DNA of 64,000 bases. Source: Pseudooceanicola marinus (GTDB taxonomy: Bacteria > Pseudomonadota > Alphaproteobacteria > Rhodobacterales > Rhodobacteraceae). Below are positions 6,761-37,508 of the stretch, piece after piece (the stretch's first letter is position 1; the number at the start of each line of letters is the position of its first letter). A program made the position numbers and the translations under genes. The notes beneath the pieces are model-generated. The model searched no databases. It was not told the origin of the DNA and saw only the letters and a list, made by a program, of their open reading frames with translations. Location: positions 62,001 to 126,000 of the forward strand of contig NZ_JAIVMC010000010.1 in NCBI RefSeq assembly GCF_020177265.1. Direction: 5' to 3'.

Positions 6761-7571
6761 CCGGCATACCCTCCGACGACAAGACCAAGAAGAAGATGAC
6801 CATGACCTATGATGTGACCCGCATCGCCTCGCACCGGGGCGGCACGTTGGAGTTCGGCGACAGCACCCCGCAGGGGTTCCGCGCCACGGCCGCGATGGCG
6901 CTGGAGGAGGTCGAGTTCGACGTCCACCCTACGGCGGACGGCGCCATCATGGTGCACCACGACGCCACGCTGGACCGCACCACCGATGCCACCGGCGCGA
7001 TCCGCGACCTGACCGAGGCCCAGGTGCGCGCCGCCACCATCGACTATGGCGCGGGCGGCCACCCCATCTCGCTCGCCGAGCTGTGCGAGATCTTCCGGGA
7101 GAGTGCGGTTACCTTCCGCTGCGAGCTGAAGCCTGGGCCGGGCGGCCTGGCCTATCCCGGCTTCGCGCCGAAGGTCGTGGCCGAGCTGACCCGCTGCGGG
7201 ATGTTGCATCGCACCGGCTTCTCCTCTTTCCTGATCGAGACGGTGGACGCGCTGCAGGCGGCCTCCGACCGGCCCTGCGTGTGGCTGGTCAGCCCGCCCG
7301 TGCTGACCCAGCTGGGCGCCGCCGGGGTGCTGGAGGTCTGCGCGGCCCATGGCATCGCCGAGATCGGCATGAACATCGACAGCGCCACGGCGGAATTGAT
7401 GACCCAGGTGCGCGCCGCCGGGATCCACTTCGGCTGCTGGGGGGCGCATGACGCCGCCCGGATCGACCGCGCGCTGGAGATGGGGGTGAAGGTCTTCACC
7501 ACAGATCGTCCCAGCCTGGCCATCGCCCGCCGCACCGCCCACCAGACCGCCCGCCAGATGGAGGCCGCGCA

Positions 7572-7575
<4 letters not shown>
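6757..7575 (+). CDS. ugpQ: Glycerophosphodiester phosphodiesterase
   Basis: Cytoplasmic GDPD-family enzyme, 272 aa, that hydrolyses glycerophosphodiesters (for example glycerophosphocholine) to glycerol-3-phosphate plus an alcohol. The N-terminal HRGG motif supplies the catalytic His. It is followed by EFDVHPTADGAIMVHHD, containing the metal ligands and second catalytic His of the family, and later by CELKP. There is no signal peptide, so hydrolysis follows uptake. ATGA overlaps link it to the gene before and the ATPase after. Its place inside the transporter operon is the best evidence for the substrate class. The start could instead be the ATG at 6796. Confidence 0.9.
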
Positions 7576-8579
<1,004 letters not shown>

Positions 8580-22438: not shown

Positions 22439-22662
22439 ACGCCGCTGCAGGGCGGGGCCGGACGGAGGGCCCGCGCAACCACGGGAAATGACTCGCAAGT
22501 TACTGGACCTACTAATGGTTTAAGGGTCATATGACGGGATAGCGGCCGATCCTCCCCGATTTGGTCACATTTTTAGGTTCATCCTTACGAAACGGAATGA
22601 ACTTGATTCGCAGGCGGGACAAAGCGGTGATTACTGCTCGGACTCTTCATGATGAACGCGAC

Positions 22663-23304
22663 ATGGGCGGTGTGTCCGCCGGGGCGATGCGTGTCCTCAT
22701 CGCCGATGACCATGATTTGCTGCGGGATACGCTTCAGGCGTTCCTGAACGCCGAGGGCGGCTTCGATGCCGGCACGGTCGCGTCCTTCGACGAGGCCGTG
22801 GCGCAGGTCGAAGCCGGGGCGCATTATGATCTGATCCTGCTGGACTATTCGATGCCGGGCATGCGCGGTCTCGACGGGCTGAAGCGGATGATGGAGCTGG
22901 CGGGGCACAACCGCGTCGCCATCATCTCGGGCACTGCCAGCCGCGAGATCGCCGAAGAGGCCCTGGCCGTGGGCGCCGCGGGCTTCGTGCCGAAGACTCT
23001 CTCGGCCAAGTCGCTGATCAATGCGGTGCGCTTCATGGCCATGGGGGAGCAGTATGCGCCCCTCGAATTCATGCGCGCGCCCGCCGAGGAAGAGGATGCG
23101 AACCCGCTGGCCGAGATGCTGTCGGAGCGCGAGTTGCAGGTGCTGGAGGGGCTGACCCAGGGCAAGGCGAACAAGGAAATCGCCCGGGATCTGGATATCC
23201 GCGAACCCACGGTGAAACTGCACGTGAAGACGCTGTATCGCAAGATCGGCGCCTCGAACCGCACCCAGGCGGCGATGATCGCCAAGGAAGCCGGTCTGTT
23301 CTGA
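22663..23304 (+). CDS. NarL/LuxR-type response regulator
   Basis: About 213 aa: an N-terminal receiver (VLIADDHDLLRD acidic pair; phospho-acceptor Asp in LILLDYSMPGM; conserved Lys in FVPKTLS) and a C-terminal LuxR helix-turn-helix (LSERELQVLEGLTQGKANKEIARDL...VKLHVKTLYRKIGASNR). It is the natural output of the phosphorelay kinase encoded divergently. Start uncertain: in-frame ATGs at 22597, 22663 and 22687 are all possible and none has a clear ribosome-binding site. Confidence 0.9.
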   Translation: MGGVSAGAMRVLIADDHDLLRDTLQAFLNAEGGFDAGTVASFDEAVAQVEAGAHYDLILLDYSMPGMRGLDGLKRMMELAGHNRVAIISGTASREIAEEALAVGAAGFVPKTLSAKSLINAVRFMAMGEQYAPLEFMRAPAEEEDANPLAEMLSERELQVLEGLTQGKANKEIARDLDIREPTVKLHVKTLYRKIGASNRTQAAMIAKEAGLF

Positions 23305-23336
23305 CCCTTTCGGGGCGGGACGCCCGCTGACCAGGA

Positions 23337-24728
23337 TCAGCCCAGGACGCGGCCCGCGTTCAGCAGCTCCGCGGGATCCATGGCCGCCTTCAACCGGGTC
23401 ATCACCAGCCGTTCCTGCTCGCTGCGTACCATCGACAGGTAGGGCGCCTTGTCCTGACCGACCCCGTGTTCGGCGGTGATCGAGCCGCCAAGACGCGCCG
23501 CCAGCCCGTTCAGCGCCGCCGAGACCTCGGTGCGGGCCTCGGTCTTCACGATGTAATGCAGGTTGCCGTCGCCCAGGTGGCCGTAGATGTAGACGCCGGC
23601 CTGCGGATCGACCTCGGCCAGCCGGGTGCGGGCCTCGGCCAGGAAGGCGGGCAGGGCGCGGGCGGGCAGTGACAGGTCATGCGGCAGCAGGTTGCCCAGG
23701 GAGAAGGTGAAATCCACGCAGGCCTCCCGCAGGGCCCAGAGCCGGTCATGATCCCGCGCTGATTGCGACACCACCACGTCGCGGCACAGCCCGGCCTCGT
23801 AGGCCTCGATCAGCGCGGCTTCGAAGGCGTCTTCCTGCAGGATCTCCCGCATTCCCTGGATCTCGGTCAGCACGTAGAGACCGGCGCCCGTGGGCAGCGG
23901 CGGGTTGCAGGTCAGGGCGCAGGCGCCCTCGTAGACCTCGGGCCAGATGCCCTCGTAGGCCGACAGCAGCGGGCCCAACCGGGCGCGCAGGTGGCGCAGC
24001 AGGGCCTGGGCCGCCTCGACGCTGTCCACGGCACAGAGCGCATTGGTTTCCACCGTCGGCGCCGGGTGCAGGCGCAGCAGGGCGCGGGTGACCACGCCCA
24101 GCGTGCCTTCCGATCCGATGAAGAGCTGGCGCAGGTCCGGCCCGGCGTTGTCCTTTTCCAGGCCCTTCATGGCGGTGATCACGGTGCCGTCGGCCAGCAC
24201 CGCCTCGATCCCCGCGACCTGGGCGCGCATCATGCCGTAGCGCAGCACGCGGATGCCGCCGGCATTGGTGGCGATCATCCCGCCGATGGTGGCGGATCCG
24301 CGCGCGCCAAGATCGACGCCGAAGATCAGGCCACTGGCAGCTGCCGCCTCCTGCACCTGTTGCAGGGTCGCGCCGGCGCCCACCTCGATCTGGGCGGCCA
24401 GATCGTCGACGGGGCCGATGGCGGTCATCCGCTCCAGCGACAGGACGACCTCTCCCGGCTGCACCCTGGCGCCCCCCGACAGGCCCGTCAGCCCGCCCTG
24501 GAGCACGACCCGGCGCCCCGCCTCCTGGCAGAGACGCAGCGCGGCAGAGACCCCGGCGGTGTCGGCCGGGCGGATCACCAGGCTGGGCGTGGCCGCCACG
24601 CGGCGTGTCGCGTCGGTGGTGAAGCGCGCCAGCTGGTCAGGATCCGTCACCAGCCCGAGATCCAGCCCGGTGGCCGCCAGGGCGGTCTGCAACGGATCGC
24701 TGGTGGCAGGGGCGAGGGCCTCAGCCAT
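23337..24728 (-). CDS. GlcD-like FAD-linked 2-hydroxyacid oxidase/dehydrogenase
   Basis: A 463-aa flavoprotein of the VAO/PCMH fold (glycolate oxidase GlcD, D-lactate and D-2-hydroxyglutarate dehydrogenase family). The FAD-binding half has QGGLTGLSGGA and GARGSATIGGMIATNAGG. The C-terminal half has YIYGHLGDGNLHY and ITAEHGVGQDKAPYL, supplying the metal and substrate histidines. Expected reaction: a D-2-hydroxy acid to a 2-oxo acid. The ATG at 24728 overlaps the RidA stop by 8 bp. Last gene of the ten-gene minus-strand run. Confidence 0.88.
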   Translation of the reverse strand: MAEALAPATSDPLQTALAATGLDLGLVTDPDQLARFTTDATRRVAATPSLVIRPADTAGVSAALRLCQEAGRRVVLQGGLTGLSGGARVQPGEVVLSLERMTAIGPVDDLAAQIEVGAGATLQQVQEAAAASGLIFGVDLGARGSATIGGMIATNAGGIRVLRYGMMRAQVAGIEAVLADGTVITAMKGLEKDNAGPDLRQLFIGSEGTLGVVTRALLRLHPAPTVETNALCAVDSVEAAQALLRHLRARLGPLLSAYEGIWPEVYEGACALTCNPPLPTGAGLYVLTEIQGMREILQEDAFEAALIEAYEAGLCRDVVVSQSARDHDRLWALREACVDFTFSLGNLLPHDLSLPARALPAFLAEARTRLAEVDPQAGVYIYGHLGDGNLHYIVKTEARTEVSAALNGLAARLGGSITAEHGVGQDKAPYLSMVRSEQERLVMTRLKAAMDPAELLNAGRVLG

Positions 24729-25101
24729 CGGTGGGATCGGGCACGGCACAGATCATGATCATCTCGACCTTCAGATCGGGGTTGGCCATGTTCGCCTCGA
24801 AACAGGCGCGGGCGGGCGGGGCGATGTCGGCAACCCACTCGTCCCAGACGGCATTGAAGGCGGCCACGTCGCCCACATCCTTCAGGATGATTGCGCAGAA
24901 CAGAAGCCCTGCCTTGGTCGAACCGATCTCGGTCAGCCGGGCCTCAGCCTTCTCCAGCAGCTGCGCGGCCTGCTCGGCGGTCGACAGGCTGCCGTCGTAG
25001 GGCGCCTTGGGGGTCACGGCGAAGTAGCCTGTGCCATTTGCCACCGTGGCGATGGAGGCGCGGGCGCCGGTCCCGAAACGGGTGATGATGTCGTCGAACA
25101 T
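24721..25101 (-). CDS. RidA-family enamine/imine deaminase
   Basis: A 126-aa RidA/YjgF/UK114 protein. The conserved Arg is at 98 (APPARACFEAN), with Cys100 and the late Glu113 (KVEMIMICAV), consistent with an active imine deaminase. Such proteins hydrolyse reactive 2-aminoacrylate-type enamines released during amine or amino-acid breakdown. It overlaps the flavin oxidase gene by 8 bp and follows the ABC ATPase gene by 10 bp. Its presence suggests that the imported compound is an amino-acid-like nitrogen compound. Confidence 0.88.
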   Translation of the reverse strand: MFDDIITRFGTGARASIATVANGTGYFAVTPKAPYDGSLSTAEQAAQLLEKAEARLTEIGSTKAGLLFCAIILKDVGDVAAFNAVWDEWVADIAPPARACFEANMANPDLKVEMIMICAVPDPTDG

Positions 25102-25111
25102 GGGGCCTCGC

Positions 25112-26182
25112 TTACTCGGTCAGGACGAAGACGGCGTCTTCGGTCCAGCTGAAATGACAGGTGTCGCCTTCCTTCAGGATCACCACGTCGGCGCCAGGCA
25201 CCCGCACGCGGATCTGCTGGTCGCTGGCATGACCGATGACCACGGCATTGTCGCCGTAGTTGACGATCGTCTCGATCTGCATCTGCGCATTCTGGCGGCC
25301 CTCCTTGGGGTCGCGCGACAGCTTCAGGTGCTCGGGCCGGATCAGCAGGTCGACGGTCTGGCCGTCGCTGACCTGCGGACAGCCCTCGGCGCCGAAGGTC
25401 ACGTCGCCCAGCACCGGGCTGGTGGCGCGGCGGGTGCCGGCATCGGTGATGGTCGCGGGCAGCAGGTTGCTCTCGCCGATGAAGTCGGCGACGAAGCGGG
25501 TGGCGGGGCGGTGGTAGATCTCCAGCGGCGCATCGGCCTGTTCGATGGCCCCGTCGGAGAAGACGACGATCCGGTCGGACATCGACATCGCCTCGGTCTG
25601 GTCATGGGTGACGAAGATCGTGGTCACGCCCAGGCGCTTCTGGATTCGCTTGATCTCGATCTGCATCTGTTCACGCAGGTTCTTGTCCAGCGCACCCAGC
25701 GGTTCGTCGAGCAGCAGCAGGTCGGGCTCGAACACCAGCGCGCGGGCCAGGGCCACGCGCTGCTGCTGGCCGCCCGACAGCTCTTTCGGCAGACGATGGG
25801 CAAAGCCCGAGAGGCCGACCAGTTCCAGCATTTCCTCGGCCTTCTTCAGACCGGCCTTCTTGCCCACCTTGCGCATCTGCAGCGGAAAATAGACGTTTTC
25901 GGCCGCGGTCTTGTGCGGGAAGAGGGCATAGTTCTGGAAGACGATGCCGATGTTGCGTTCCTGGGGCGCCAGGTGCGACAGCGACTGGCCGTCCACCGTG
26001 ATCTCGCCCCGGGTGGCATCCTCGAAGCCCGCGATGACCATCAGCGTGGTGGTCTTGCCCGACCCGGACGGCCCGAGGAAGGTGACGAACTCGCCCTTCT
26101 CGATCTCCAGGTCGATATGGCCGAGGGCGGTGAAGTTTCCGAAGGTCTTGTTGACGCCGGACAGCTGCAGATAGGAGCTCAT
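25112..26182 (-). CDS. Spermidine/putrescine-type ABC transporter ATPase
   Basis: ATP-binding subunit, 356 aa, PotA/FbpC type. Walker A GPSGSGKT is at 37-44, then LSGGQQQRVALARAL, LLDEPLGALD and VTHDQTEAM. A C-terminal TOBE domain contains LLIRPEHLKLSRD. The ATG follows an appropriately placed GGAG (on the minus strand). It is co-transcribed after the two permeases (15-bp gap). Confidence 0.92.
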   Translation of the reverse strand: MSSYLQLSGVNKTFGNFTALGHIDLEIEKGEFVTFLGPSGSGKTTTLMVIAGFEDATRGEITVDGQSLSHLAPQERNIGIVFQNYALFPHKTAAENVYFPLQMRKVGKKAGLKKAEEMLELVGLSGFAHRLPKELSGGQQQRVALARALVFEPDLLLLDEPLGALDKNLREQMQIEIKRIQKRLGVTTIFVTHDQTEAMSMSDRIVVFSDGAIEQADAPLEIYHRPATRFVADFIGESNLLPATITDAGTRRATSPVLGDVTFGAEGCPQVSDGQTVDLLIRPEHLKLSRDPKEGRQNAQMQIETIVNYGDNAVVIGHASDQQIRVRVPGADVVILKEGDTCHFSWTEDAVFVLTE

Positions 26183-26197
26183 GGTTTCTCCCGAAGG

Positions 26198-26992
26198 TTA
26201 TCGTTGTTGGGCCGTCTTGGCCGTCATGCGGCGGATCAGCTTGATCACGGAGGGGGCGATCAGGCCGGCGAAGACGATGGCGAAGAGCAGAGTCGAGATG
26301 ACGGCGATGACCGGGTCGGCCTCTTCGCGGATCGAGTCGAACATCTTGCGCGGCAGGGTTTCCGCGTTGCGACCCGAGATGAAGATGGCGACGACGGTTT
26401 CGTCGAAGGACTGGATGAAGGCGAAGAGCGCCGAGATCAGCAGGCCGGGGCGCAGGATCGGCAGGGTGATGTGCAGAAAGACCTGCCGCGGTGTGGCACC
26501 GAGCGAGCGCGCGGCGCGTTCCAGGGTCCGGTCGAACCCCTTCAGGTTGGCCGACAGCACCAGGAAGGTGATCGGCACCGACAGGCAGGTGTGCGCCAGG
26601 ATCACGCCCAGCTTGGAGTGCACCAGCTTCAGCTCGCCGAAGTAGGAGTAGTAGCCGATCGCCATGACGATATGGGGCACCGCCATGGGCATCATCATCA
26701 TCAGGTTGGCCGCCGACTTGCCCCAGAACTTGTGCCGTACCAGGGCGAAGGTGGCCGGGACCACCAGCGCCATGGTCAGCAGCGTGTTCATCGCGGCGAT
26801 GAAGACCGAGTTCCAGGTGGGCCGCAGCCAGGAGGGATCGGAGAAGTAGGCCTGGTAGTACTGCCAACCCCAGCCCGGCGGCGGGAACTGCAGGGAGGCG
26901 GCGGTGGAGAAGGACATCGGCACGACGATCAGCAGGGGCGCAGCGATGAAGGCGACGACGGCGATGCCGATCCAGCGGATGAAGGTGTTCAT
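26198..26992 (-). CDS. Spermidine/putrescine-type ABC permease (PotC-like)
   Basis: A 264-aa inner-membrane permease with six hydrophobic segments and the coupling motif ERAARSLGATPRQVFLHITLP. The start at 26992 (MNTFIRWIGIAVVAF) has AAGGA about 8 bases upstream. It forms a heterodimer with the PotB-like gene, 11 bp upstream. Confidence 0.9.
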   Translation of the reverse strand: MNTFIRWIGIAVVAFIAAPLLIVVPMSFSTAASLQFPPPGWGWQYYQAYFSDPSWLRPTWNSVFIAAMNTLLTMALVVPATFALVRHKFWGKSAANLMMMMPMAVPHIVMAIGYYSYFGELKLVHSKLGVILAHTCLSVPITFLVLSANLKGFDRTLERAARSLGATPRQVFLHITLPILRPGLLISALFAFIQSFDETVVAIFISGRNAETLPRKMFDSIREEADPVIAVISTLLFAIVFAGLIAPSVIKLIRRMTAKTAQQR

Positions 26993-27003
26993 GGCGGGCG
27001 TCC

Positions 27004-27852
27004 TTATCCGTAGAGTTTGTCGAGGCCGAAACGGCGGTGGTAGAGCCCTAGGATGATCAGCGTCACCACCAGCAGCACGATGGCCATGGCCGAGCCCAGG
27101 CCGAAGGCCAGGAACTGTTCGATCTGGTTGCCGATCAGGCCCGCGGCCATCTGTTCGCGCGGGGATCCCAGCAGGACGGGTGTCACGTAGAAGCCCAGGC
27201 AGATGACGAAGACCAGGACCGAGCCATTGGCGATGCCCGGCGCGGTCAGCGGCAGGTAGACATGGCGGAACAGCGACCGGCCGTAGGCCCCCATGCTTTC
27301 CGCCGAGCGGATCAGCGAGGGGTCGATCTTCTGCATGACCGTGTAAATGTTCATGATCATGTAGGGCGCCAGGATATGCACCATGGCCAGGGTCGAGCTG
27401 AACCGGGTGAACAGCAGCGGCGGCGGATCCTGGATGCCCAGCGTCTGCATCAGCCAGATCACCGGGCCGTTGTTGCCCAGAAGGACCATCCAGGCATAGG
27501 TGCGCACAAGGAAGGAGGTCCAGAAGCTCATGGTGATGAGCAACAGGATCGCCATGGCGGCGCGTTTGCTGACCGTCGACATCAGGTAGGCCAGCGGGTA
27601 GCCGACCAGAAGGCAGCAGACAGTCACCAGCAGGGCGGTGCCGAAGGTGTTGAGAAAGACCTTGCGGTAGAGGGAGCCGGTCAGCACCCGTTCGTAGTTG
27701 GCCAGGCCCGGGGGCGGTTCGGTGACGGACATGATGCCCACCTCGACCAACGGCACGAGGAAGAAGAGCGCCAGGTAGATCGCCAGCGGGGCCAGCAGCA
27801 GCCATGGCCAGATGTTCTGCCGGTCCGGCAGGGTCGAAAGCTTGAACCCCAT
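27004..27852 (-). CDS. Spermidine/putrescine-type ABC permease (PotB-like)
   Basis: A 282-aa permease with six hydrophobic segments, starting WPWLLLAPLAIYLALFF. The coupling motif reads RSAESMGAYGRSLFRHVYLP. It is separated from the binding-protein gene by 147 bases containing two hairpins, unlike the tight spacing elsewhere in this operon. Confidence 0.9.
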   Translation of the reverse strand: MGFKLSTLPDRQNIWPWLLLAPLAIYLALFFLVPLVEVGIMSVTEPPPGLANYERVLTGSLYRKVFLNTFGTALLVTVCCLLVGYPLAYLMSTVSKRAAMAILLLITMSFWTSFLVRTYAWMVLLGNNGPVIWLMQTLGIQDPPPLLFTRFSSTLAMVHILAPYMIMNIYTVMQKIDPSLIRSAESMGAYGRSLFRHVYLPLTAPGIANGSVLVFVICLGFYVTPVLLGSPREQMAAGLIGNQIEQFLAFGLGSAMAIVLLVVTLIILGLYHRRFGLDKLYG

Positions 27853-27920
27853 GGGATGTCGCTCCCTTGATGGTGCGGAAAGTCGATGGTGCCCGCAGGT
27901 GCAGGCACACGGGTGAGGGT

Positions 27921-27983
27921 CGGGGCGGCAGGGGACATGCCGCCCCGAGAGGGGACGCGGACGGGGGAAAGCGTCACGCGTCC
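27921..27983 (-). other. Hairpins between binding-protein and permease genes
   Basis: A perfect 10-bp stem (CGGGGCGGCA, 27921-27930, with TGCCGCCCCG, 27938-27947) and a second GGACGCG/CGCGTCC pair (27953-27959/27977-27983) sit in the 147-bp gap. There is no T tail in the direction of transcription. They probably stabilise the binding-protein message or attenuate expression of the permeases. Confidence 0.6.
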
Positions 27984-27999
27984 GTCGCTGTGGTCGGGA

Positions 28000-29058
28000 T
28001 CAGGAGGCCAGCCACTCGTCGAAGCGCATGGCAACTTCCTGCGGGTCGCCGCCCCAGTTCAGCATGTCCTGGCCGAAGGTCTGTTCGACATTGCCGGGCG
28101 CCGTGGGCATGCGGGGCTTGGCCGCGTCGGGGACGAAGGCGTCCGCCGCCGGGTTCAGCGCGCCATAGTTCGCCTGGCTGACGAAACCGGCCAGCGGTTC
28201 GGCAGAGGTGGCGAATTCGACGAACATCTTGGCCGCTTCCATGTTGGGCGTCTCCTTGGCGACGACCCAGTAGGCATTGTCCAGCTCCGCCTGGTTCCAG
28301 GTGAAATCGACCGGCGCGCCGGCGTCTTCCGCCTCGAAGTAGCGACCGTGCCAGATGCCGATCATGTCGACCTCACCGTCGCGCAGGATCTGCGTCGACT
28401 GCGCGCCGCCGGTCCACCAGACACGGACATGCTCCTTGATCTCGTCCAGCTTGGCGAAGGCCCGGTCGATGTCCAGCGGGTAGAGATCCTCGGGCGCCAC
28501 GCCGTCGGCCAGCAGGGCCAGGGGCAGGACGCGGGCGGGGTAGCGTTGCAGCGACCGGCCGCCCGGGAAGCGTTCGACATCCCAGAAGTCGGCCCAGCTT
28601 TGCGGGGTCTCGTCCCAGCCGGCATCGGTGCGCCAGGCCATCATGGTGGCGAAGGCATGGCTGCCGACGCCGTTCTGGAACAGGCCGCCGGGGTAGGACT
28701 CTTCGATCGGCTCCAGCAGGCCGGCGTTGTTGGCGGCCACGATGTCACCGCCGCCCAGGGTGGTCACGTCGAATTCGTAGACGCCGGTGCGGACCTGGGC
28801 CGCCAGCTTGGCGAAGGACACCGGGGAGACGGTGCGGATCTCGATTCCCGTCGCCTCGGTGAAGGGGGTGAACAGGTTCTCTGTCGCGGCTTCCAGCCAG
28901 GGGCCGCCCCAGGAGTTGATGTAGAGTTCTTTCGATTGGGCCCGGCCGATGGAGGGCGCGGCCAGGGCCGACGCGCCGGCCAGCGCCGCGGTGCCCTGCA
29001 GGAACAGGCGGCGATTGGGGCGGATCAGCGACGTCTTCTTCTTGTTGTTGATGGTCAT
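28000..29058 (-). CDS. Spermidine/putrescine-type periplasmic binding protein
   Basis: A 352-aa PotD/FbpA-like binding protein. The N-terminus has a twin-arginine-like leader (NRRLFLQGTAALAG, cleavage near GRAQ), so export may be by Tat. The mature chain starts KELYINSWGGPW and contains the family-typical VRTGVYEFDVTTLGGGD and FAKLDEIKEHVRVWW segments. Start at 29058 with TGAGG upstream; the frame remains open far upstream over the dipeptidase gene, which is an antisense-type artefact. It lies 7 bp after the M19-like gene. The ligand is unknown; the family takes polyamines, but also opines, amino-acid derivatives and iron. Confidence 0.88.
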   Translation of the reverse strand: MTINNKKKTSLIRPNRRLFLQGTAALAGASALAAPSIGRAQSKELYINSWGGPWLEAATENLFTPFTEATGIEIRTVSPVSFAKLAAQVRTGVYEFDVTTLGGGDIVAANNAGLLEPIEESYPGGLFQNGVGSHAFATMMAWRTDAGWDETPQSWADFWDVERFPGGRSLQRYPARVLPLALLADGVAPEDLYPLDIDRAFAKLDEIKEHVRVWWTGGAQSTQILRDGEVDMIGIWHGRYFEAEDAGAPVDFTWNQAELDNAYWVVAKETPNMEAAKMFVEFATSAEPLAGFVSQANYGALNPAADAFVPDAAKPRMPTAPGNVEQTFGQDMLNWGGDPQEVAMRFDEWLAS

Positions 29059-29065
29059 GGGAACC

Positions 29066-30055
29066 TCAGCTGTTGGAGTTGGGGAAGGTCTCGCCGTAAA
29101 GACGCAACCAGTTGCCGTGGGTGATTTTTGCGACCTCTTCTTCCGAGAAGCCCACGTTGCGGAGGCCGTTTGGGATGACCGCCATGTCCTCCAGCGCCTG
29201 GAACCAGTCCGGGGGCGGGGCCTTTCCCGGACGGGCGGCGGAGGCTGCGCCGTAGTCGACGCCACGGGTCCAGCGACCCATGCGCATCCAGGCGTAGTCG
29301 GGGGCGGTAAAGTTGTGGCTGCGGTCGGTGCCGATGGCCACGCTGTCGATGCCGGCGATGTCGACGGTCTTCGCCACCATCTCGCACCATTGCTCGATGG
29401 GGCCGGAATAGTAGTCGCCGGTGATGTTGCGATAGGCGGCGCAGCCGATGACACCGCCGGTTTCCTTCAGCGCGCGCAGCACGTCGTCGGTCTTGTTGCG
29501 CTTGTGCGGAAACAGGCTGTCGGCATTGGCATGGGTCACCGCGATGGGTTTCTCCGACGCCTCGATGGCCTGCAGGGTCGAGAGGTTGCCGACGTGGGAG
29601 CAATCCACCAGGATCCCCGCGCGGTTCATCTCCTTGATGACTTCCTTGCCGTAGCGCGCCAGGCCCGAGTCCTCGGCCTCATAGCAGGAACCGGCCAACT
29701 CGTTCTGATTGTTGTAGGTCAGCTGCACCACGCGCACGCCCAGTTCGGCCCACATCTCGACCAGGCGAATGCGGCCCTCGAAGAGGTTCGAGTTCTGGTA
29801 GCCCAGGATCGCGGCGACCTTGCCCTCGGCGGCGGCCTTTTCGATATCGGCGGGGGTATAGGCGAAGGCGGCCACGTCGTCGTTTTCGCGGATCAGGTCG
29901 CGCCAGCGGCCGAGGCTGTCGAGGCTTTCCAGCGTGCCTTCCCAGAAGCCGCAGGTGACCACGACGCCGTGCACCTTGGCGGCCTGCAGCCGGACGAAAC
30001 TGTCGCGGTCGAAATGGCCGCATTGCAGGCCGTCGATGATCATGTCAGGGGTCAT
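29066..30055 (-). CDS. M19 (membrane/renal) dipeptidase-like protein with altered metal site
   Basis: A 329-aa amidohydrolase-fold protein. Late family motifs are intact: DCSHVGN (His154), AVTHANADS (His175), KRNKTDDVL (Arg186) and IGTDRSHN (Asp244). The first metal ligands are not: the usual DGHxD near the N-terminus is DGLQCG here, and the bridging Glu segment reads GYQNSN (Gln87). So half of the di-zinc site is missing, and the enzyme may use one metal or act on a different substrate. It overlaps the 229-aa gene by 4 bp. No signal peptide; cytoplasmic. Confidence 0.85.
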   Translation of the reverse strand: MTPDMIIDGLQCGHFDRDSFVRLQAAKVHGVVVTCGFWEGTLESLDSLGRWRDLIRENDDVAAFAYTPADIEKAAAEGKVAAILGYQNSNLFEGRIRLVEMWAELGVRVVQLTYNNQNELAGSCYEAEDSGLARYGKEVIKEMNRAGILVDCSHVGNLSTLQAIEASEKPIAVTHANADSLFPHKRNKTDDVLRALKETGGVIGCAAYRNITGDYYSGPIEQWCEMVAKTVDIAGIDSVAIGTDRSHNFTAPDYAWMRMGRWTRGVDYGAASAARPGKAPPPDWFQALEDMAVIPNGLRNVGFSEEEVAKITHGNWLRLYGETFPNSNS

Positions 30056-30741
30056 TGGGTGGCTTCCTGGGTCTTGAGGCCGACCGAATTGATGAAGTTC
30101 GGGTCGGTGTCGTCGTCATTGTCGGTGCGGCCGATGATCTGGCCGTCTTCGGTCACGATGTTCACGCCCGCGTGGCGGCGCGAGACGACCGAATCCGGTG
30201 TCAGGGCGGTCTGGGCCAGCTCGTAGATGCGCCACCACTGCGCCGCCTCGATGCGGGCGCCGTCCTGCAGGACACGGGTGAGCACCGGATCGGCCACCGG
30301 GCCGCGCGTGGCGGTCAGCGTGGTGCCGGACAGCGACACTTCCAGCCCGTGCCGGGCGCCCAGGCCCTCCGCGATGGCCAGTTCCGCGGCGTCGGTGGCG
30401 CCGGTCACCTCGATCCGGGCGCTGTCATGCTGCGCCAGGGTCAGTTCCAGCAGGTCGAGGGCGGAGGGCAGGGCGATCCAGGCGTGCTGGCCGCCGGCGT
30501 CGAGGACCAGGCGGTCTCCCACCTCCGCCATCAGCGCCAGCGGGGTGGGGGTCGCCTCCATCAGGTCGGGCAGGCGCGCCTCCAGCAGGGGGAAGCCGCC
30601 CAGCCCCATGGCCTGGGAATACATCACCACGTCGGTGATCATCAGCGCGAAGCCCTTGGGCAGGGCGGTCAGCGACAGAATGCGTTCGCTCATCAGGCGC
30701 ATTTCGCGCGGCATCACGCGCAGGGTCTGGGAGGGGGTCAT
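30052..30741 (-). CDS. Conserved hypothetical protein (possibly DUF3726-like), 229 aa
   Basis: Soluble protein with no recognised enzyme motif. Visible features: an N-terminal helix pair (SERILSLTALPKGFALMITDVVMYSQ followed by GLGGFPLLEARLPDLM) and a C-terminal W-x-x-x-Y-x-L-A-x-x-A-L-x-P-x-S-x-x-SRRHAG...RTDND stretch. This pattern reminds me of DUF3726 proteins, which end in a Ser-Arg/AG/DND region; that is from memory and uncertain. Both ends overlap neighbours by 4 bp (ATGA), so it is translationally coupled to the 574-aa and M19-like genes and probably works with them. Confidence 0.7.
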   Translation of the reverse strand: MTPSQTLRVMPREMRLMSERILSLTALPKGFALMITDVVMYSQAMGLGGFPLLEARLPDLMEATPTPLALMAEVGDRLVLDAGGQHAWIALPSALDLLELTLAQHDSARIEVTGATDAAELAIAEGLGARHGLEVSLSGTTLTATRGPVADPVLTRVLQDGARIEAAQWWRIYELAQTALTPDSVVSRRHAGVNIVTEDGQIIGRTDNDDDTDPNFINSVGLKTQEATQ

Positions 30742-32462
30742 GCGCGGGGCTCCTCGGGGTAGAACCAGTCGCCGACCTGGCCCGCGGCGATGGCGTCGCG
30801 GGTCGGTGCGCCGTGGTAGAGCACACCGCGCAGGTTGCGTTGCAGGTAGTCGCGGGTCTTGTCGATGCCGTGCAGGCCGACGTTCATCAGCCGCACCAGG
30901 TCGATGGGCACGAAGGATCCGGCGTTGATGTTGGCGTGCGGCGTGTGGAAATGGCGCCCGGCCAGGGATTGCGCGCGGGCCACCATCAGCCGGTGTTCGG
31001 GATGGGCCAGCAGGAAGCGGGCGACGGCCGTGTCCGGGGCCACTTCGCCCAGGTCGGCGTGAAGCGCCTGAAGGTTGCCGGGGATGTCCAGGCCCAACTC
31101 GCGCGCCTCGGGGATCTCGTCCCGCAGGCCGCGGCGCGGTTCCTCGGCGGTCTCGGACTTGTACCAGACGTAGTCCTGGGCATCGGGCGCGGTCATGTCC
31201 ATCTCCAGCGCCCAGGCATAGTCCTCCTCCAGCAGCGCGCGCAGGGCGCCGGTGGTCATCACGGGATCGACCTCCAGCTCATCCGCGCCCGCGACGCCGG
31301 CGGCCAGCTCGTCGGCCAGGTCGGGGACCAGTTCCATGATGAGCGACAGGAAGGTCTCGTAGCTTTCGGGGGCCAGGGTCGCCTCGGCCCGGCGAGCCAG
31401 GACATCCAGCGGGAAGTCATGGGCCGTGCCGTCGATGGTTCCGGCGTCGAGCAGCTCCTCCAGGGCGGGGATCAGGCTGGCGACCTCCTCGGCCACGGTG
31501 GCGGAGGCGGCGAAGGTTTCGTACATCATCCGGTCCTGGGCGCGGAAGGTCTGCGCCCGACGGATCAGCGTGATCAGCCGCTCGATCCGCGCGTCGCCCC
31601 GGCCCAGGTCCAGCCCGAGGGCGGCGGCGATGGCGGTTTCGCGGGCCGTCAGCCAGCTGTCCAGAAGGCGCGGGTGCTTCTGTACGAAGAAGATCAGGCC
31701 GAGCGCCGAGCCGTTGCCGACGCCCAGGTAGCTGCGCAGGGCCGGGTCCAGTTTCACCGCCTTGTCCGAACGCAGTCTGGCCAAGTGTTCCACCAGGTCG
31801 CAGGCCAGTTCGCGCATCAGGTAGGCCAGCAGCAGCTGCGCCTCCAGCATGCCGCCCAGGTCGTGCGCCTCGGTGTTGATCGACGGGAAGGAGCGGGTGC
31901 CGAAGGTGCCGTTGCCGTCCAGCCCGGTGTTGCGCATCAGGTAGCAGACGGTGTTCAGATCCTCGACCGAGGGCTGGCGCCCGTCGGCGAGCGCCTCCAG
32001 CACCGTCTCGAAGACCCGCATGGACCGGTTCGACCGGCACCAGACCAGCGCGGTGTCGCTGGCGCGGCCGCGGTAGAGTTTCGGCAGCTCCTCGCGGGCA
32101 CTTTCGATGGCCTCCTCGGTGGCCGGGCCCTCGTTCAGGGTGCCCATCATGTCCCAGGCGCGGCCGATGATGCGGCCCGTGCGCCCCTCGCGTTTGGGCG
32201 TCAGCGAAAAGGCGATGAAGCTGAACTCTTGCCGGGGCGTCTTGATCGAATAGACGATCGTGCCGCGCGCCTCGTCATCCACGTCGAAGCGGTCGCAGGT
32301 GATCTGCCAGCGCTCGCGGCTCATCCGGTTCATCATCGCCCGCGTGCCGCTGAGGCGCGAGGGCTGCATCGCGGCCAGCCGCTCGGGTTTCATCAGCCCG
32401 CGCCAGTCGCGCAGGCCGGGGCGCCCGTCGGCGTCCCGGGTGTGAAGGGATGAAAGCGTCAC
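30738..32462 (-). CDS. Hypothetical 574-aa protein, first structural gene of the operon
   Basis: Unrecognised soluble protein. It starts with GTG overlapping the iclR stop (GTGA). Sequence features: a basic N-terminus, an antiparallel-looking segment (GTIVYSIKTPRQEFSFIAFSL), CYLMRNTGLDGNGTFG, long acidic helices from about 290 to 450, and a C-terminal AGRHFHTPHANINAGSFVP stretch with clustered His and Asn that might bind metal or ligand. There are no transmembrane segments and no nucleotide-binding loop. Its size and strict coupling to the regulator upstream and the 229-aa gene downstream argue for a real, abundant enzyme or complex subunit. No function assigned. Confidence 0.75.
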   Translation of the reverse strand: MTLSSLHTRDADGRPGLRDWRGLMKPERLAAMQPSRLSGTRAMMNRMSRERWQITCDRFDVDDEARGTIVYSIKTPRQEFSFIAFSLTPKREGRTGRIIGRAWDMMGTLNEGPATEEAIESAREELPKLYRGRASDTALVWCRSNRSMRVFETVLEALADGRQPSVEDLNTVCYLMRNTGLDGNGTFGTRSFPSINTEAHDLGGMLEAQLLLAYLMRELACDLVEHLARLRSDKAVKLDPALRSYLGVGNGSALGLIFFVQKHPRLLDSWLTARETAIAAALGLDLGRGDARIERLITLIRRAQTFRAQDRMMYETFAASATVAEEVASLIPALEELLDAGTIDGTAHDFPLDVLARRAEATLAPESYETFLSLIMELVPDLADELAAGVAGADELEVDPVMTTGALRALLEEDYAWALEMDMTAPDAQDYVWYKSETAEEPRRGLRDEIPEARELGLDIPGNLQALHADLGEVAPDTAVARFLLAHPEHRLMVARAQSLAGRHFHTPHANINAGSFVPIDLVRLMNVGLHGIDKTRDYLQRNLRGVLYHGAPTRDAIAAGQVGDWFYPEEPRA

Positions 32463-33232
32463 GAGGCGCCTCCTTGCAGGATTTGGGAGAGGTCCGCGGC
32501 CGCTTTCAGCAGCGGCGCGCGGAAGCGGGCCTCGTCGAAGCGGATTTCCGGCACGACGAGGGAAAGGGTGGCGGTGCAGCGGCCATGCAGATCGAAAACG
32601 GGCGCCGCGATGGCGCGCACGCCGCTTTGGGTATAGCCGCTGGACAGCGCATAGCCTGCCTCGCGGATCGCCGGCAACGTCGCCTCGTCGGGCAGCGGGT
32701 GGTCGCCCTTGCGCAGCCGGTCCAGCATCTGCGCATCGCCATAGGCCACCAGGATCCGCCCCGAGGCGGAGCCTTCCAGCGACATCATCGTGCCCAGCTT
32801 CTGTTCGGCGCGCAGCAGGGTGTCGGATTCCACGCGGGCCACGATGCAGGGCAGGCCGCGGTCGATGATCGACAGCGAGGCGGTTTCGCCGGTGTCGTCC
32901 ACCAGCGCGCGCAGCACCGGGTCGGCCCGGGTGCCCAGGTCCGCCTGGTCGAGCGAGGCCGAGGCCATGCGGGTGGTCAGCATCGACAGGCGATAGGCGC
33001 CGCCATCGTCCTGTTCCAGCCAGCCGGCGGCGACCAGGGTCAGCAGCCGCTGATAGGCGGTGGCGCGCGACAGGCCCAGCCCCTCGGCCACCTCGGCCAG
33101 CCGTTGCGGCCGGCGCTTGTCCCCGAAGAAGCGCAACACGTCCAGAACCTTGAGCGCGGTCGACAGCGGGCGGACGCCGCCATCCTTGGGCGCTGTTTCG
33201 GTCTGTATTCTATCTGAATATGAATGATCCAT
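32459..33232 (-). CDS. IclR-family transcriptional regulator
   Basis: A 257-aa regulator: N-terminal winged helix (about 20-80; RRPQRLAEVAEGLGLSRATAYQRLLTLVAAGWLEQ) and a C-terminal IclR effector domain (ARVESDTLLRAEQKLGTMMSLEGSASGRILVAYG...). Start at 33232, with AGGA 8 bases upstream; the open frame continues much further but through AT-richer non-coding DNA. Two ATATGAA repeats 13 bp apart (33218, 33231) overlap the first codons and could be an autoregulatory site. It is the first gene of the ten-gene run and divergent from the TPP enzyme. Confidence 0.9.
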   Translation of the reverse strand: MDHSYSDRIQTETAPKDGGVRPLSTALKVLDVLRFFGDKRRPQRLAEVAEGLGLSRATAYQRLLTLVAAGWLEQDDGGAYRLSMLTTRMASASLDQADLGTRADPVLRALVDDTGETASLSIIDRGLPCIVARVESDTLLRAEQKLGTMMSLEGSASGRILVAYGDAQMLDRLRKGDHPLPDEATLPAIREAGYALSSGYTQSGVRAIAAPVFDLHGRCTATLSLVVPEIRFDEARFRAPLLKAAADLSQILQGGAS

Positions 33233-33725
33233 ATGAAATATCCTGTGAAGCATTTCGCGTTCTGTCAAAGGAAATAGAGGCGTCTCAGGTGCAGGTTTTG
33301 GGGTGTCGCAGGTCAAGTCCTTGAAAATTCGCGAAGAAAATTTTGCGATTTCTGTATCAATTTTTGAGCAAGGCGGGGCAATTTCGCTGCTTTTGCCGGA
33401 ATTGGCTCTGTGCGCGGTCTCGGAGGGAGGTGGGGTGAAGGGCTGTTCCCGAGTCGGCGCACAGGCCTTCTGTATTGAAATTAAATACATTTCTTGCGCG
33501 CTGCGGGGTGCGAACGTCGTCGTCCCGGGGTGCTCGTTGGCGCCATGCTTGCCGATTTTCGCCGTCATGGCGATTTGTGGTGCTCATTATTATTGACACA
33601 TCTGCCGAGATCGGGAGGATCAGGCGAAACGCGGGTCCACGCATTCTGTGGGGCCGGGGCCCTGGGACGTGCGAAGGACGAACGTTCAGACGTCGGGGCC
33701 GGACACGTCAGGAAGGTAGAGAGTG
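33233..33725. promoter_or_regulatory. 493-bp divergent intergenic region
   Basis: Lower GC than its surroundings (for example AAAATTCGCGAAGAAAATTT around 33325-33343). It holds the promoters of the ten-gene minus-strand operon and the TPP enzyme gene. A TTGACA lies at 33593-33598 on the plus strand without a convincing -10 partner. AGGAAGG near 33710 is the ribosome-binding site of the TPP gene. No RNA gene is evident, but the length leaves room for a regulatory RNA or several operators. Confidence 0.4.
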
Positions 33726-35264
33726 ATGACAAGAAACGGTGCCGATCTGGTGGTGCAGACGCTGGCCGAAAACGGGGTGCGGATGTGTTTTGCCAATCCC
33801 GGAACGACGGAAATGCACATGCTTGCCGCCCTGGGGCGGGAGCCGCGGATGGACCTGTCGCTCTGCCTTTTCGAGGGGGTCGCGACCGGGGCCGCCGATG
33901 GCTACGCGCGGATGATGGGTACGCCGGCGGCGGTGCTGCTGCACCTGGGGCCGGGCTTTGCCAATGGCATGGCCAACCTGCACAATGCCCGCAAGGCCGA
34001 GACGCAGGTGTTCAATATCGTGGGCGAACACGCGACCTATCACCTGACCTATGACGCGCCGCTGACCGCCGACATCGCCGGCATGGCGCATACGGTCTCC
34101 GCCGCCGTCGCCACCCCCGACACGCCCGAGGCGGCCGCAGGGGCCACCGCGCATCTGCTGGCCGAGACGTCCCACGGCGGCGTCGCCACGCTGATCGTGC
34201 CCAATGACGTCGCCTGGGCGGAAACCGACGCCGAAACCGTCGCGGCCATCCACACGCCGCGCCCAGGCTTCGATGCCGATCTGCTGGCCGATGCCGCCGC
34301 GCGGCTGCGGGCGCCGGGGGCCGCGCTGATCGTCGGCGCCCCCTGCATCACCCGCCGCATGGCGGAACTGGCCGCGGCCATCGAGGCCAGCACCGGGGCC
34401 ATGGTACGGGCCGAGGCCGCCGTGGCGCGGATGGAGCGCGGCGGCGGCACTCCACCCATGACGCGCGTGCCCTTCCACGTCGATTTCGCCACCGAGGCGC
34501 TGAAGGACATCCGGACCGCCGTGCTGGTCGGCGCCCGCGAACCCGTGGCCTTCTTCGCCTATCCCGGTCGCCCCTCGCGCCTGCTGGCCGAAGGGGCGGA
34601 ATGCCTGCCGCTCTGTGCGCCCGGCGCCGATGCCGAGGCCGCGCTGGAGGCCCTGGCGGACTTGCTTGGCGCCCGGGTCACCGGCCACACCCAGACCCCC
34701 GCGACCCCGGCGGAGCCGGACGCGGCGATCAATGCCGAGGTGCTGGGCCGCACCGTTGCCCATGCCCTTCCCGAGGGCGCCATCGTGGTGGACGAAAGCA
34801 TCACCAACGGGCTGTCCCTCTTCCCGATGTGCGGCGAGGGGCCGGCGCATGACTGGCTGAACAACCGGGGCGGCTCCATCGGCTATTCCCTGCCCGTGGC
34901 GCTTGGCGCGGCGACGGCCTGCCCGGATCGGCCGGTCTTCTGCATCACCGGCGATGGCTCGGCCTTCTATACCCTTCAGGCGCTGTGGACGATGGCGCGG
35001 GATGCCCGCGACGTGACGGTGATGATCCTCGCGAACCGCTCCTACAAGATCTTGGCAAACGAGACGGCCAAGATCGGGGCGGGGGAGGCGACCGAGGCCA
35101 CCGGCCCGCTGATGTCGCTGGAGGATCCGGCGCCCGACTGGGTGAAACTGTCCGAAGGGCAGGGCGTGCCGGCCCGCCGCGCGGGCACCGCCGCCGAACT
35201 GACCGAGGCCTTGGCCTGGGCGCAGGGCGAGGCCGGCCCCCACCTGATCGAAGTGACGATGTGA
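33726..35264 (+). CDS. Thiamine-diphosphate-dependent enzyme (acetolactate synthase/benzoylformate decarboxylase-like)
   Basis: A 512-aa three-domain TPP enzyme. The N-terminal Pyr domain has Glu50 (LCLFEGVATGAADGYAR), which activates the cofactor. The PP domain has GDGS at 409-412 followed by ANRSYK, the magnesium/diphosphate motif. The middle domain is reduced and has no obvious FAD site. Proteins like this are often annotated as acetolactate synthase large subunits, but no small subunit is present, so a 2-oxoacid decarboxylase or lyase is more likely. The ATG at 33726 is preferred over an overlapping GTG at 33723. It faces the IclR operon, whose GlcD-like oxidase could supply a 2-oxo acid. 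Confidence 0.85.
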   Translation: MTRNGADLVVQTLAENGVRMCFANPGTTEMHMLAALGREPRMDLSLCLFEGVATGAADGYARMMGTPAAVLLHLGPGFANGMANLHNARKAETQVFNIVGEHATYHLTYDAPLTADIAGMAHTVSAAVATPDTPEAAAGATAHLLAETSHGGVATLIVPNDVAWAETDAETVAAIHTPRPGFDADLLADAAARLRAPGAALIVGAPCITRRMAELAAAIEASTGAMVRAEAAVARMERGGGTPPMTRVPFHVDFATEALKDIRTAVLVGAREPVAFFAYPGRPSRLLAEGAECLPLCAPGADAEAALEALADLLGARVTGHTQTPATPAEPDAAINAEVLGRTVAHALPEGAIVVDESITNGLSLFPMCGEGPAHDWLNNRGGSIGYSLPVALGAATACPDRPVFCITGDGSAFYTLQALWTMARDARDVTVMILANRSYKILANETAKIGAGEATEATGPLMSLEDPAPDWVKLSEGQGVPARRAGTAAELTEALAWAQGEAGPHLIEVTM

Positions 35265-35353
35265 CCGGCGACGTGGCGACAGGCACCGCAGGGCACTGGC
35301 GTGCCTTGCGGAAACACGGTACGTCTCGGGTCCTGTCAGGCAAGGGGGGCGTC

Positions 35354-35941
35354 ATGACCGACGCGGCTTTCGACATCGGTGCGCGGCTTCTGGCCATGCG
35401 CAAGGCGGCGCAGCTGTCGCAGCGGCAGCTGGCCGAACGCGCGGGCGTGCCCCATGCGCAGATCTCGATCATCGAGAAGAACAAGTCCTCGCCCTCCATC
35501 GCCACCCTGCGCAAGATCCTGTCGGGGCTGGGCATGACCATGGCCGACTTCTTCGAGAGCGAGCGGCAGGCGCCAGAAGGCCCGTTCTTCAGCCCCGAGG
35601 ACCTGCTGGACCTGACCTCGAAACTGCCCGTCACGGGGGTTTCGGACGTGGCCGGGCGCATCGCCTTCCGCCAGATCGGCGACGCGCATCGCCACAACCT
35701 GCAGATCCTGCATGAGGTCTATGAGCCCGGCGCCGACACCGGCGAGACGATGCTGGAGCATTTCTCCAACGAGGGCGGTTACGTCATCGAGGGGGAGCTG
35801 GAGCTGACGGTGGGCGGCGAGGTGCGGATCCTGAAGCCCGGGGACAGCTACCTGTTCGACAGCCGCATTCCGCATCGGTTCCGCAACCCCCACGAGGGCC
35901 GCACCGTCGTCATTTCCGCCTGCACGCCGCCCTACCTCTGA
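35354..35941 (+). CDS. XRE-family regulator with C-terminal cupin (PuuR-like)
   Basis: A 195-aa regulator: helix-turn-helix at about 9-66 (LSQRQLAERAGVPHAQISIIEKNKSSPSIATLRKIL) and a cupin at about 110-190 (SNEGGYVIEGELELTVG...PGDSYLFDSRIPHRFRN) that binds a small effector. This layout is typical of PuuR-type regulators of polyamine and amino-acid catabolism. It is 89 bp downstream of the TPP enzyme on the same strand. The ATG at 35354 begins the globular domain. A terminator follows. Confidence 0.9.
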   Translation: MTDAAFDIGARLLAMRKAAQLSQRQLAERAGVPHAQISIIEKNKSSPSIATLRKILSGLGMTMADFFESERQAPEGPFFSPEDLLDLTSKLPVTGVSDVAGRIAFRQIGDAHRHNLQILHEVYEPGADTGETMLEHFSNEGGYVIEGELELTVGGEVRILKPGDSYLFDSRIPHRFRNPHEGRTVVISACTPPYL

Positions 35942-35971
35942 GCCGTTCAACCCGCTTTGTCGGGTGATTTC

Positions 35972-36000
35972 GACCTGCGCGCCTTTGCGCAGGTCTTTCG
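35972..36000 (+). terminator. Rho-independent terminator after the XRE/cupin gene
   Basis: GACCTGCGC (35972-35980), loop GCCTTT, GCGCAGGTC (35987-35995), then TTT. A perfect 9-bp stem 30 bp after the stop codon. Confidence 0.65.
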
Positions 36001-36105
36001 CATTTGCGGGCCGGGGAGGCGCCTGATCCGCTCATTCGCGCAAATCGCCGTCCGTATCTGCTTCGATGCGCAGGGTGGGGCGGTTGAACGCGCAGTTTCA
36101 ATCGA

Positions 36106-36145
36106 TCTTCATCTGACTGACTCCGAACTGTCATGAAAGCTGCCT
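36106..36145 (+). promoter_or_regulatory. Tandem Pho box upstream of the second ugpB
   Basis: Four 7-mers start 11 bp apart: TCTTCAT (36106), CTGACTC (36117), CTGTCAT (36128), GCTGCCT (36139). The third is an exact match to the PhoB half-site CTGTCAT, and the spacing equals that of known tandem Pho boxes. It lies 41-80 bp before the ugpB start and supports phosphate-starvation control. Confidence 0.65.
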
Positions 36146-36185
36146 AGGCGAGGGGCATCCTTTTCTTCCTTTCACGGAGCATCCG

Positions 36186-37508
36186 ATGCAGCGCAACCTG
36201 ATCGCAGGCCTGGCCCTGACCACCGCCCTGGTGGCCCCGCTGGCCGCCTCGGCCCAGACCGAAATTTCCTGGTGGCACGCCATGGGCGGCGCCCTGGGCG
36301 AGAAGGTCGACGAGATCGTCGCCAACTACAACGCCTCTCAGGACGAGTATCACCTGACCGCCACCTACCGCGGCAGCTACACCGAGACGATGACCGCGGC
36401 CATCGCCGCCTTCCGCGCCGGTGAACAGCCGAACCTGGTGCAGGTCTTCGAAGTGGGCACCGGCACCATGATGGCCGCCGAAGGCGCCGTCTATCCGGTC
36501 TACCAGCTGATGGAAGATCACGGTCAGGACTTCGACCCCTCGGTCTACCTGCCCGCCGTGGCCGGCTACTACACCAACACCGACGGCCAGATGCTGTCGA
36601 TGCCCTTCAACTCCTCCACCCCGATCCTGTACTACAACAAGGACATCTTCGCCGAGGCCGGCCTGGACGCCGACGTGGCGCCGGAAACCTGGGCCGACGT
36701 GGAAGAGATGTCGCGCAAGATCGTCGACAGCGGCGCGGCCGAATGCGGCTTCACCACCGGCTGGATCTCCTGGGTGCAGCTGGAAAACCTGTCGGCCTGG
36801 CACAACCAGCCGATCGGCACGCATGAAAACGGCTTTGGCTCCATCGACAGCGAGATGACCGTCAACGGCCCGGTGCAGATCCGTCACTGGGAAAACCTGG
36901 CCAAGTGGGAAGACGAAGGCCTGTTCAAATACGGTGGCCCCGGTGGCGGTGCCGACAGCGCGCCGGCCTTCTACTCGGGTGAATGCGCCATCTACATGAA
37001 CTCCTCCGCCTCGCGCGCCGGCGTTCTGGCCAACACCGAATTCGACCTGGGCCTGGGCATGCTGCCCTACTACGCCGACGTCGAGGGTGCGCCGCAGAAC
37101 TCGATCATCGGCGGTGCCACCCTGTGGACCCTGGCCGGTGCGTCGGACGCCCAGTACGACGGTGTCGCCTCCTTCCTGACCTACCTGTCCTCCGCCGAGG
37201 TCCAGGCCGACTGGCACCAGTTCACTGGCTACCTGCCGATCACCAACGCCGCCTACGAGCTGAGCCAGAGCCAAGGCTACTACGACGAGAACCCCGGCGC
37301 CGACATCGCGATCAAGCAGATCACGCTGAACGAGCCGACCGCCAACTCCAAGGGCCTGCGCTTCGGCAACTACGTGCAGATCCGCGGCGTGATCGACGAA
37401 GAGTTCGAGAACCTGCTGTCGGGCGACAAGACCGCCGAAGAGGCGCTGAACGACCTGGTCGAGCGCGGCAACTCGCTGATCGCGGACTTCGTCGAAGCCA
37501 ACGGCTGA
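36186..37508 (+). CDS. ugpB: sn-Glycerol-3-phosphate ABC importer binding protein
   Basis: Periplasmic binding protein, 440 aa. Signal peptide 1-23 (ending AASAQTEISWWHAM). It contains ISWWHAMGG, GEQPNLVQVFEVGTGTMMAA, MPFNSSTPILYYNKD and a C-terminal RGVIDEEFENLLSG segment, closely matching classical UgpB, better than the first copy does. It binds glycerol-3-phosphate or glycerophosphocholine. A hairpin follows the stop. Codon use is more biased to C-ending codons than in neighbours, consistent with high expression. Confidence 0.93.
   Translation: MQRNLIAGLALTTALVAPLAASAQTEISWWHAMGGALGEKVDEIVANYNASQDEYHLTATYRGSYTETMTAAIAAFRAGEQPNLVQVFEVGTGTMMAAEGAVYPVYQLMEDHGQDFDPSVYLPAVAGYYTNTDGQMLSMPFNSSTPILYYNKDIFAEAGLDADVAPETWADVEEMSRKIVDSGAAECGFTTGWISWVQLENLSAWHNQPIGTHENGFGSIDSEMTVNGPVQIRHWENLAKWEDEGLFKYGGPGGGADSAPAFYSGECAIYMNSSASRAGVLANTEFDLGLGMLPYYADVEGAPQNSIIGGATLWTLAGASDAQYDGVASFLTYLSSAEVQADWHQFTGYLPITNAAYELSQSQGYYDENPGADIAIKQITLNEPTANSKGLRFGNYVQIRGVIDEEFENLLSGDKTAEEALNDLVERGNSLIADFVEANG

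Follow-up and report, generated by a model that had tools for sequence, protein, structure and literature searches.

The window analysed here, a 64,000-nt stretch of the Pseudooceanicola marinus genome, carries on its minus strand (23337-33232) a cluster of ten genes which probably represents an inducible operon for taking up and catabolising a small carboxylated nitrogen compound, and a variant of a widespread three-protein module. The module combines a 574-amino-acid (aa) protein of a new family (P574), a DUF3726 protein, whose counterpart in the window is P229, and a hydrolase of the peptidase M19 fold. A preliminary description, made from the nucleotide sequence, had proposed the uptake and degradation of a nitrogen-containing compound. 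This remains the best reading of the cluster, although the chemistry assigned to it below is conjectural. All ten open reading frames (ORFs) were found with the overlaps and gaps that had been described, and eight of the ten proteins matched, in Pfam and NCBIfam, the families that had been named for them.

The constant part of the cluster comprises four genes, encoding an IclR-family regulator (32459-33232; PF01614, 2.1e-27; PF09339, 2.2e-15), P574 (30738-32462), P229 (30052-30741) and the M19-fold protein (29066-30055), with 4-bp overlaps between neighbours at all three junctions. Scanning a genome collection with P574 yielded 27 close loci. Presence and absence of genes in the loci were counted by tblastn, because the ORF caller was greedy and missed or misoriented some genes. 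The order iclR-P574-P229-M19, with iclR first, was retained in 27/27 loci, and the arrangement is therefore not due to chance. Relatives of the periplasmic binding protein were found in 26 of these loci, of the permeases in 25, of the ATPase within the operon in 24 and of the RidA-family protein in 20. A relative of the GlcD-type dehydrogenase was found in only five, one of them with just 46-50% identity and in two pieces. The conserved unit is thus nine genes or fewer: the cluster is indeed one conserved operon, as the preliminary description held, but ten genes overstates what is conserved, GlcD being an optional addition rather than a core member and a few loci ending early. Contigs end inside the operon in L010 and L023, and in the second permease in L029. 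In the latter locus, from a metagenome-assembled genome (MAG), a permease directly follows the M19 gene (6028-7858).

The hosts of the close loci are mostly relatives within Rhodobacterales and Hyphomicrobiales. One Vreelandella and a single gammaproteobacterial MAG are also among them, pointing to a degree of transfer between lineages. The window type of P574 is rare in its own family: among the 133 sampled family genomes that bear P574, it was present only in the genome of the window and in G531 (69% identity), the next identity being 38% or less, and no P574 match was found in G574, another genome of the same genus.

Beyond the close relatives, P574 was detected in 53/385 sampled genomes of the class, 133/295 of the family and 29/398 of the phylum (nine of them outside the class), so that it can no longer be called an orphan as in the preliminary description. 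The family sample contained 143 P574 places, a count in which the split gene of G528 figures once. That P574, P229 and the M19-like protein form a unit, and are not usually found apart, had been anticipated, and the three do travel together: besides the 27/27 close loci, at least 126 of the 143 places have the start of an M19 relative no more than 5 kb away from P574, and 118/143 have a DUF3726 match within the same distance. Conversely, 118 of the 120 DUF3726 matches in the 295 family genomes are situated within 5 kb of P574, and DUF3726 is therefore practically bound to P574. Both were found in 114 genomes, P574 only in 19 and DUF3726 only in two.

P574 itself had no Pfam match even at E≤10 and no NCBIfam match at E≤0.01. 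A search of PDB sequences with a 45-row profile gave nothing usable (best 0.24). A fair AlphaFold2 model was obtained, with a predicted local distance difference test score (pLDDT) of 82.6 and a predicted template modelling score (pTM) of 0.87. Foldseek returned no match to this model at E≤0.001, the best being 0.097 in PDB and 0.48 among viral models. The 45-row alignment (A3), built from 23 window-type and 22 other P574 proteins, contains 40 invariant columns, with many arginines and glycine-rich stretches; judged from the alignment, these conserved residues would suit the binding of an acidic ligand. P574 is thus a large conserved family without recognised fold or function, nearly always encoded beside the same two partners.

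P229 had likewise been regarded as an orphan. At E≤0.01 it matches nothing in Pfam or NCBIfam, and at E≤10 there is a single Pfam match (0.088); it falls below the Pfam cut-off of PF12525 (DUF3726), and no match to PF12525 was found in its own genome. Nevertheless, when an alignment of 24 of the 28 P229 proteins (A1) was compared using hhalign with one of 24 clustered DUF3726 proteins (A2), the match was significant (3.9e-7, probability 92.8), three unrelated comparisons giving 0.66, 0.44 and 0.078. On this profile comparison P229 is a divergent relative of DUF3726, and it also shares with that family its place beside P574.

The AlphaFold2 model of P229 (pLDDT 84.1, pTM 0.74) gave 20 Foldseek matches to dehydrogenases at E≤0.001, the best being 1x0a (2.9e-5). 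These are described as malate/lactate, ureidoglycolate, delta1-piperideine-2-carboxylate or unnamed dehydrogenases, all of which we take to belong to the Ldh_2 family. The structural match is partial, covering ∼140 columns with template modelling scores of 0.41-0.53 of the query. By sequence, DUF3726 aligns weakly to Ldh_2 (hhalign 7.3e-4). In Ldh_2 dehydrogenases the SHG motif holds the catalytic histidine, and it is invariant in 10/10 Ldh_2 neighbours. Neither the P229 alignment (A1) nor the DUF3726 alignment (A2) has a counterpart of this motif or any invariant histidine there. The model of P229 thus aligns with Ldh_2 in part, but the protein is ∼110 residues shorter, lacks SHG and is linked weakly by sequence. 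We read it as a putative partner derived from Ldh_2 and devoid of the residue normally used in catalysis. No publication on DUF3726 was found in the open-licence literature.

The third component, the M19 protein, belongs to its fold family well above the Pfam cut-off (PF01244, 1.6e-71; 241.5 bits, cut-off 26). In M19 peptidases the metals are held by an HxD pair, a bridging glutamate, histidines and an aspartate. We aligned the window protein with nine rows of its subfamily and two ordinary M19 proteins from its own genome (L002 and L004; alignment A5, 12 rows). His154, His175 and Asp244 are kept in 12/12 rows. The HxD pair and the bridging glutamate are present only in L002 and L004, and have been lost in the other ten, leaving the window protein with three of the six ligands of a binuclear dipeptidase. 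The altered metal site pointed out in the preliminary description is thus real, but it is not peculiar to the operon. The closest solved chain, 2i5g (6e-48; next best 6e-26), displays the same altered motifs (DGL..., FQN aligned), with Q replacing the bridging E, which places the window protein in the 2I5G-type subfamily. A further M19 protein with the same reduced motifs is encoded elsewhere in the same genome (L001:1486-2454, contig C5), beside an ORF for a flavin adenine dinucleotide (FAD)-dependent oxidoreductase (L001:64-1395). Since 2i5g and this protein share the motifs, the altered site is a trait of the subfamily. 2I5G is, we presume, PA5396 of P. aeruginosa, encoded next to dgcAB. 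On that identity its neighbours would be dgcAB and a hypothetical gene, whereas those of the window protein are P574 and P229. In both Vibrio natriegens and P. aeruginosa, dgcAB is reported to follow a gene for a predicted dipeptidase (PMC12093977). Nothing on PA5396, PA5397 or DUF5943 was found in the open-licence literature.

The M19 fold, scored so far above its cut-off, might suggest that the operon serves the utilisation of peptides or dipeptides, with the M19 protein acting as a true dipeptidase. We consider this very improbable: the three lost metal ligands are missing in all ten subfamily rows, and the binding protein encoded next to the M19 gene is not of a peptide-binding family. The 'peptide-like' substrate of the preliminary description is likewise unsupported, because the nearest solved binding proteins bind gamma-aminobutyric acid (GABA), polyamines and opines.

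This periplasmic binding protein (28000-29058; PF13416, 4.7e-35) is most similar to 4i1d (2.1e-51), followed by the GABA sensor 6dgv (1.4e-46), the polyamine-annotated Atu chain 4eq7 (2e-42) and opine binders including MotA (1e-36 to 8e-35). The remainder of the transporter consists of a PotB/PotH-like permease (27004-27852; PF00528; best NCBIfam PotB, 4.5e-42, below cut-off), a PotC/PotI-like permease (26198-27007; PF00528; best NCBIfam PotC, 4.8e-35, below cut-off) and a PotA/PhnT2-like ATPase (25112-26182; PF00005 and TOBE_2), all on the minus strand. The binding protein thus resembles those of the ATP-binding cassette (ABC) transporters for GABA, polyamines and opines (the parent of the GABA sensor, Atu 4eq7, MotA and the agropine permease; 2e-51 to 8e-35), and the permeases and ATPase are also of the Pot type. 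None of the four proteins, however, reaches an NCBIfam equivalog cut-off for Pot.

A separate unit, overlooked in the preliminary description, which let the system end at iclR, lies upstream of the operon and diverges from it. On the plus strand of the window it encodes a thiamine pyrophosphate (TPP) enzyme of the PRK07586/benzoylformate-decarboxylase type (33723-35264; NF005760, 617.9 bits, cut-off 363), whose nearest solved proteins are benzoylformate decarboxylases, and a PuuR-like XRE-cupin regulator (35318-35941; NF007408, 127.8 bits, below the cut-off of 211). Relatives of the TPP enzyme, 41-75% identical to it, are present in 21/27 close loci; that of L024 lies on the opposite side of the operon. 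The PuuR-like regulator was found in 17 of the loci, the aminotransferase GabT in 11 and an aldehyde dehydrogenase (ALDH) in 7, and such genes adjoin the operon in many relatives. The GabT of L013 exceeds the TIGR00700 cut-off; the ALDH of L019 is succinate-semialdehyde-dehydrogenase-like, below that NCBIfam cut-off.

These neighbours, together with nearest solved binding proteins that bind GABA, polyamines or opines, are what one would expect if the cluster served ordinary GABA, polyamine or opine catabolism, with the transporter and PuuR, GabT and ALDH doing their known work and P574, P229 and the M19 protein removing a side group or acting as accessories. We give this explanation a minor though appreciable chance. 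The most constant genes are those of P574, P229 and M19 (27/27), as against 11 for GabT and 7 for ALDH. The PuuR-like and ALDH matches lie under their NCBIfam cut-offs, and elsewhere the module is accompanied by betaine transporters and Ldh_2, not by polyamine genes.

The latter point comes from 40 wider regions around part of the P574 matches of the class scan, one of which (L062) is of the window type. By tblastn, 35 of them contained an M19 relative, 28 DUF3726, 14 Ldh_2, 14 ALDH (11 at ≥54% identity), six ProX/ProW, six LysR, five BCCT and five a SoxA-like subunit. In region L083 (1933-8188), a P574/DUF3726 pair adjoins a set that looks to be of the SoxBDAG type (∼421, 94, 985 and 195 aa) and an M24-like protein; of this set, the 985-aa protein served as a tblastn query over the 40 regions.

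The wider module may be the recently reported homarine (hom) operon. That operon, homABCDER, said to have been described by Ferrer-Gonzalez et al. in 2026, reportedly holds genes for five enzymes and one regulator, N-methylglutamate dehydrogenase being placed downstream. The neighbours of the wider module (betaine transporters, ALDH, Ldh_2 and SoxA-like proteins) appear to resemble those of that operon. One publication has Mgd taking part in homarine catabolism and includes the hom operon paper in its reference list (PMC13390433). Searches of the open-licence literature on the homarine operon and homarine catabolism found no account of the hom genes, and a search on peptidase M19 and RidA operons in the same literature gave nothing on the window system among the matches listed.

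Given the common core of P574, DUF3726 and M19, the window operon could itself degrade homarine or another N-methylated betaine, that is, the substrate of the wider family. This appears improbable. The wider module, which is found in small as well as large alphaproteobacterial genomes, often has ALDH, Ldh_2, LysR and a betaine transporter beside its core, whereas the window version is accompanied by IclR, a GABA/opine-type ABC transporter, RidA and the TPP enzyme, and has another gene order and a divergent P229. Thus the transporter type and the regulator differ, Ldh_2 was not seen in the 27 close loci, and the genome of the window has no Pfam match to DUF3726. RidA, moreover, points to ammonia, not a methylated amine, as the product released. 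Finally, the P574 of the window is only 27-38% identical to the wider clade (rows aligned in A3) and falls in a separate one: in a tree which carries long-branch warnings, L062 and L063 included, the window type with L062 makes up one side (100/100), the 23 window-type rows alone being grouped at 68/75. Should the homarine link be true, the window operon would represent a variant form of a known system, directed at a different substrate; otherwise the module would be wholly new.

We therefore return to an inducible operon for a small carboxylated nitrogen compound. In the scheme that we infer, from the class of substrate and the partnership of P574 with P229 to each reaction and the order of the steps, the IclR regulator would control the operon and the GABA/opine-type ABC transporter would import the compound. 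P574, P229 and the M19-fold protein would then carry out the distinctive step, the last of these performing a hydrolysis beside the other two. Since almost every DUF3726 protein is accompanied by P574, joint action of P574 and P229 is expected. The RidA-family protein (24721-25101, minus strand; PF01042, 2.9e-14, 53.6 bits, cut-off 27.3; TIGR00004, 33.1 bits, below the cut-off of 106.25) might subsequently hydrolyse a reactive enamine or imine. Where present, the GlcD-type FAD dehydrogenase (23337-24749, minus strand; PF02913 and PF01565) could convert a D-2-hydroxy acid to a 2-oxo acid. Sequence comparison places this enzyme nearest to D-2-hydroxyacid dehydrogenases (3pm9, 1.4e-79; human D-2-hydroxyglutarate dehydrogenase, 1.2e-65), glycolate oxidase being more distant (5.8e-41); it remains below the cut-off of TIGR00387 (230.6 bits, cut-off 567.9), and no GlcE or GlcF partner is encoded among the ten genes. 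The divergent TPP enzyme would decarboxylate a 2-oxo acid to an aldehyde, and GabT and ALDH in the relatives may lead on to succinate.

Several observations weigh against this reading. With GlcD in 5/27, GabT in 11/27 and ALDH in 7/27 close loci, the downstream route may differ between loci or lie elsewhere. RidA was not seen in L009, L011, L021 and L025 although their contigs run on, and no relative of the binding protein was found in the operon of L029. In the family sample, P574 has no M19 relative within 5 kb at 17/143 places, among the matches listed, and no DUF3726 within that distance at 25/143; some of these places are contig-edge pieces. The alignment of P229 to Ldh_2 is also weak at the sequence level (hhalign 0.0047, probability 7).

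A more specific proposal, which is speculative and which we hold to be rather unlikely, is that P574 and P229/DUF3726 constitute a new enzyme class, in which a protein of unknown fold and a dehydrogenase-like subunit devoid of the catalytic motif would, together with a metal-poor M19 hydrolase, open or dearomatise N-heterocycles such as pyridine carboxylates. For the wider family the targets would be N-methylated rings (homarine); for the window version the target would be an unmethylated relative, its nitrogen released as ammonia through RidA and its carbon routed through a 2-oxo acid, TPP-dependent decarboxylation and succinate semialdehyde. If P574 acts in the breakdown of abundant marine nitrogen compounds, knowing its reaction would account for a frequent step in how dissolved organic nitrogen is turned over. 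In the window the module takes a second form, to which a transporter and downstream enzymes of its own belong, and setting the two forms side by side should therefore show which steps are specific to the substrate and which make up the core reaction. A mobile-element or defence role was put aside, as nothing in the neighbourhood suggested either, no dedicated PADLOC or PHROGs search having been made.

After the M19 gene the junctions, calculated from ORF coordinates, are +7, +147, -4, +15, +10 and -29 bp. The 147-bp gap (27853-27999, minus strand) between the genes for the binding protein and the first permease contains strong stem-loops, as had been noted in the preliminary description: the fold of 27853-28010 reaches -67.1 kcal/mol, compared to a mean of -51.28 for shuffled sequences (z -4.17; 0/200 shuffles as stable). 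Strong stem-loops often separate the expression of the binding protein from that of the permeases. An Rfam scan of 22500-36500 produced no matches. Gaps at a similar position are present in several close loci. The intergenic region between iclR and the TPP gene contains, at 33408-33464, a 16-nt imperfect inverted repeat (88%), which is a candidate regulator site. A second copy of the binding protein gene is located near the operon in L018, L019, L020 and L031, and in L018, L019 and L031 it lies beside a gene that, read from its sequence, is class V aminotransferase-like.

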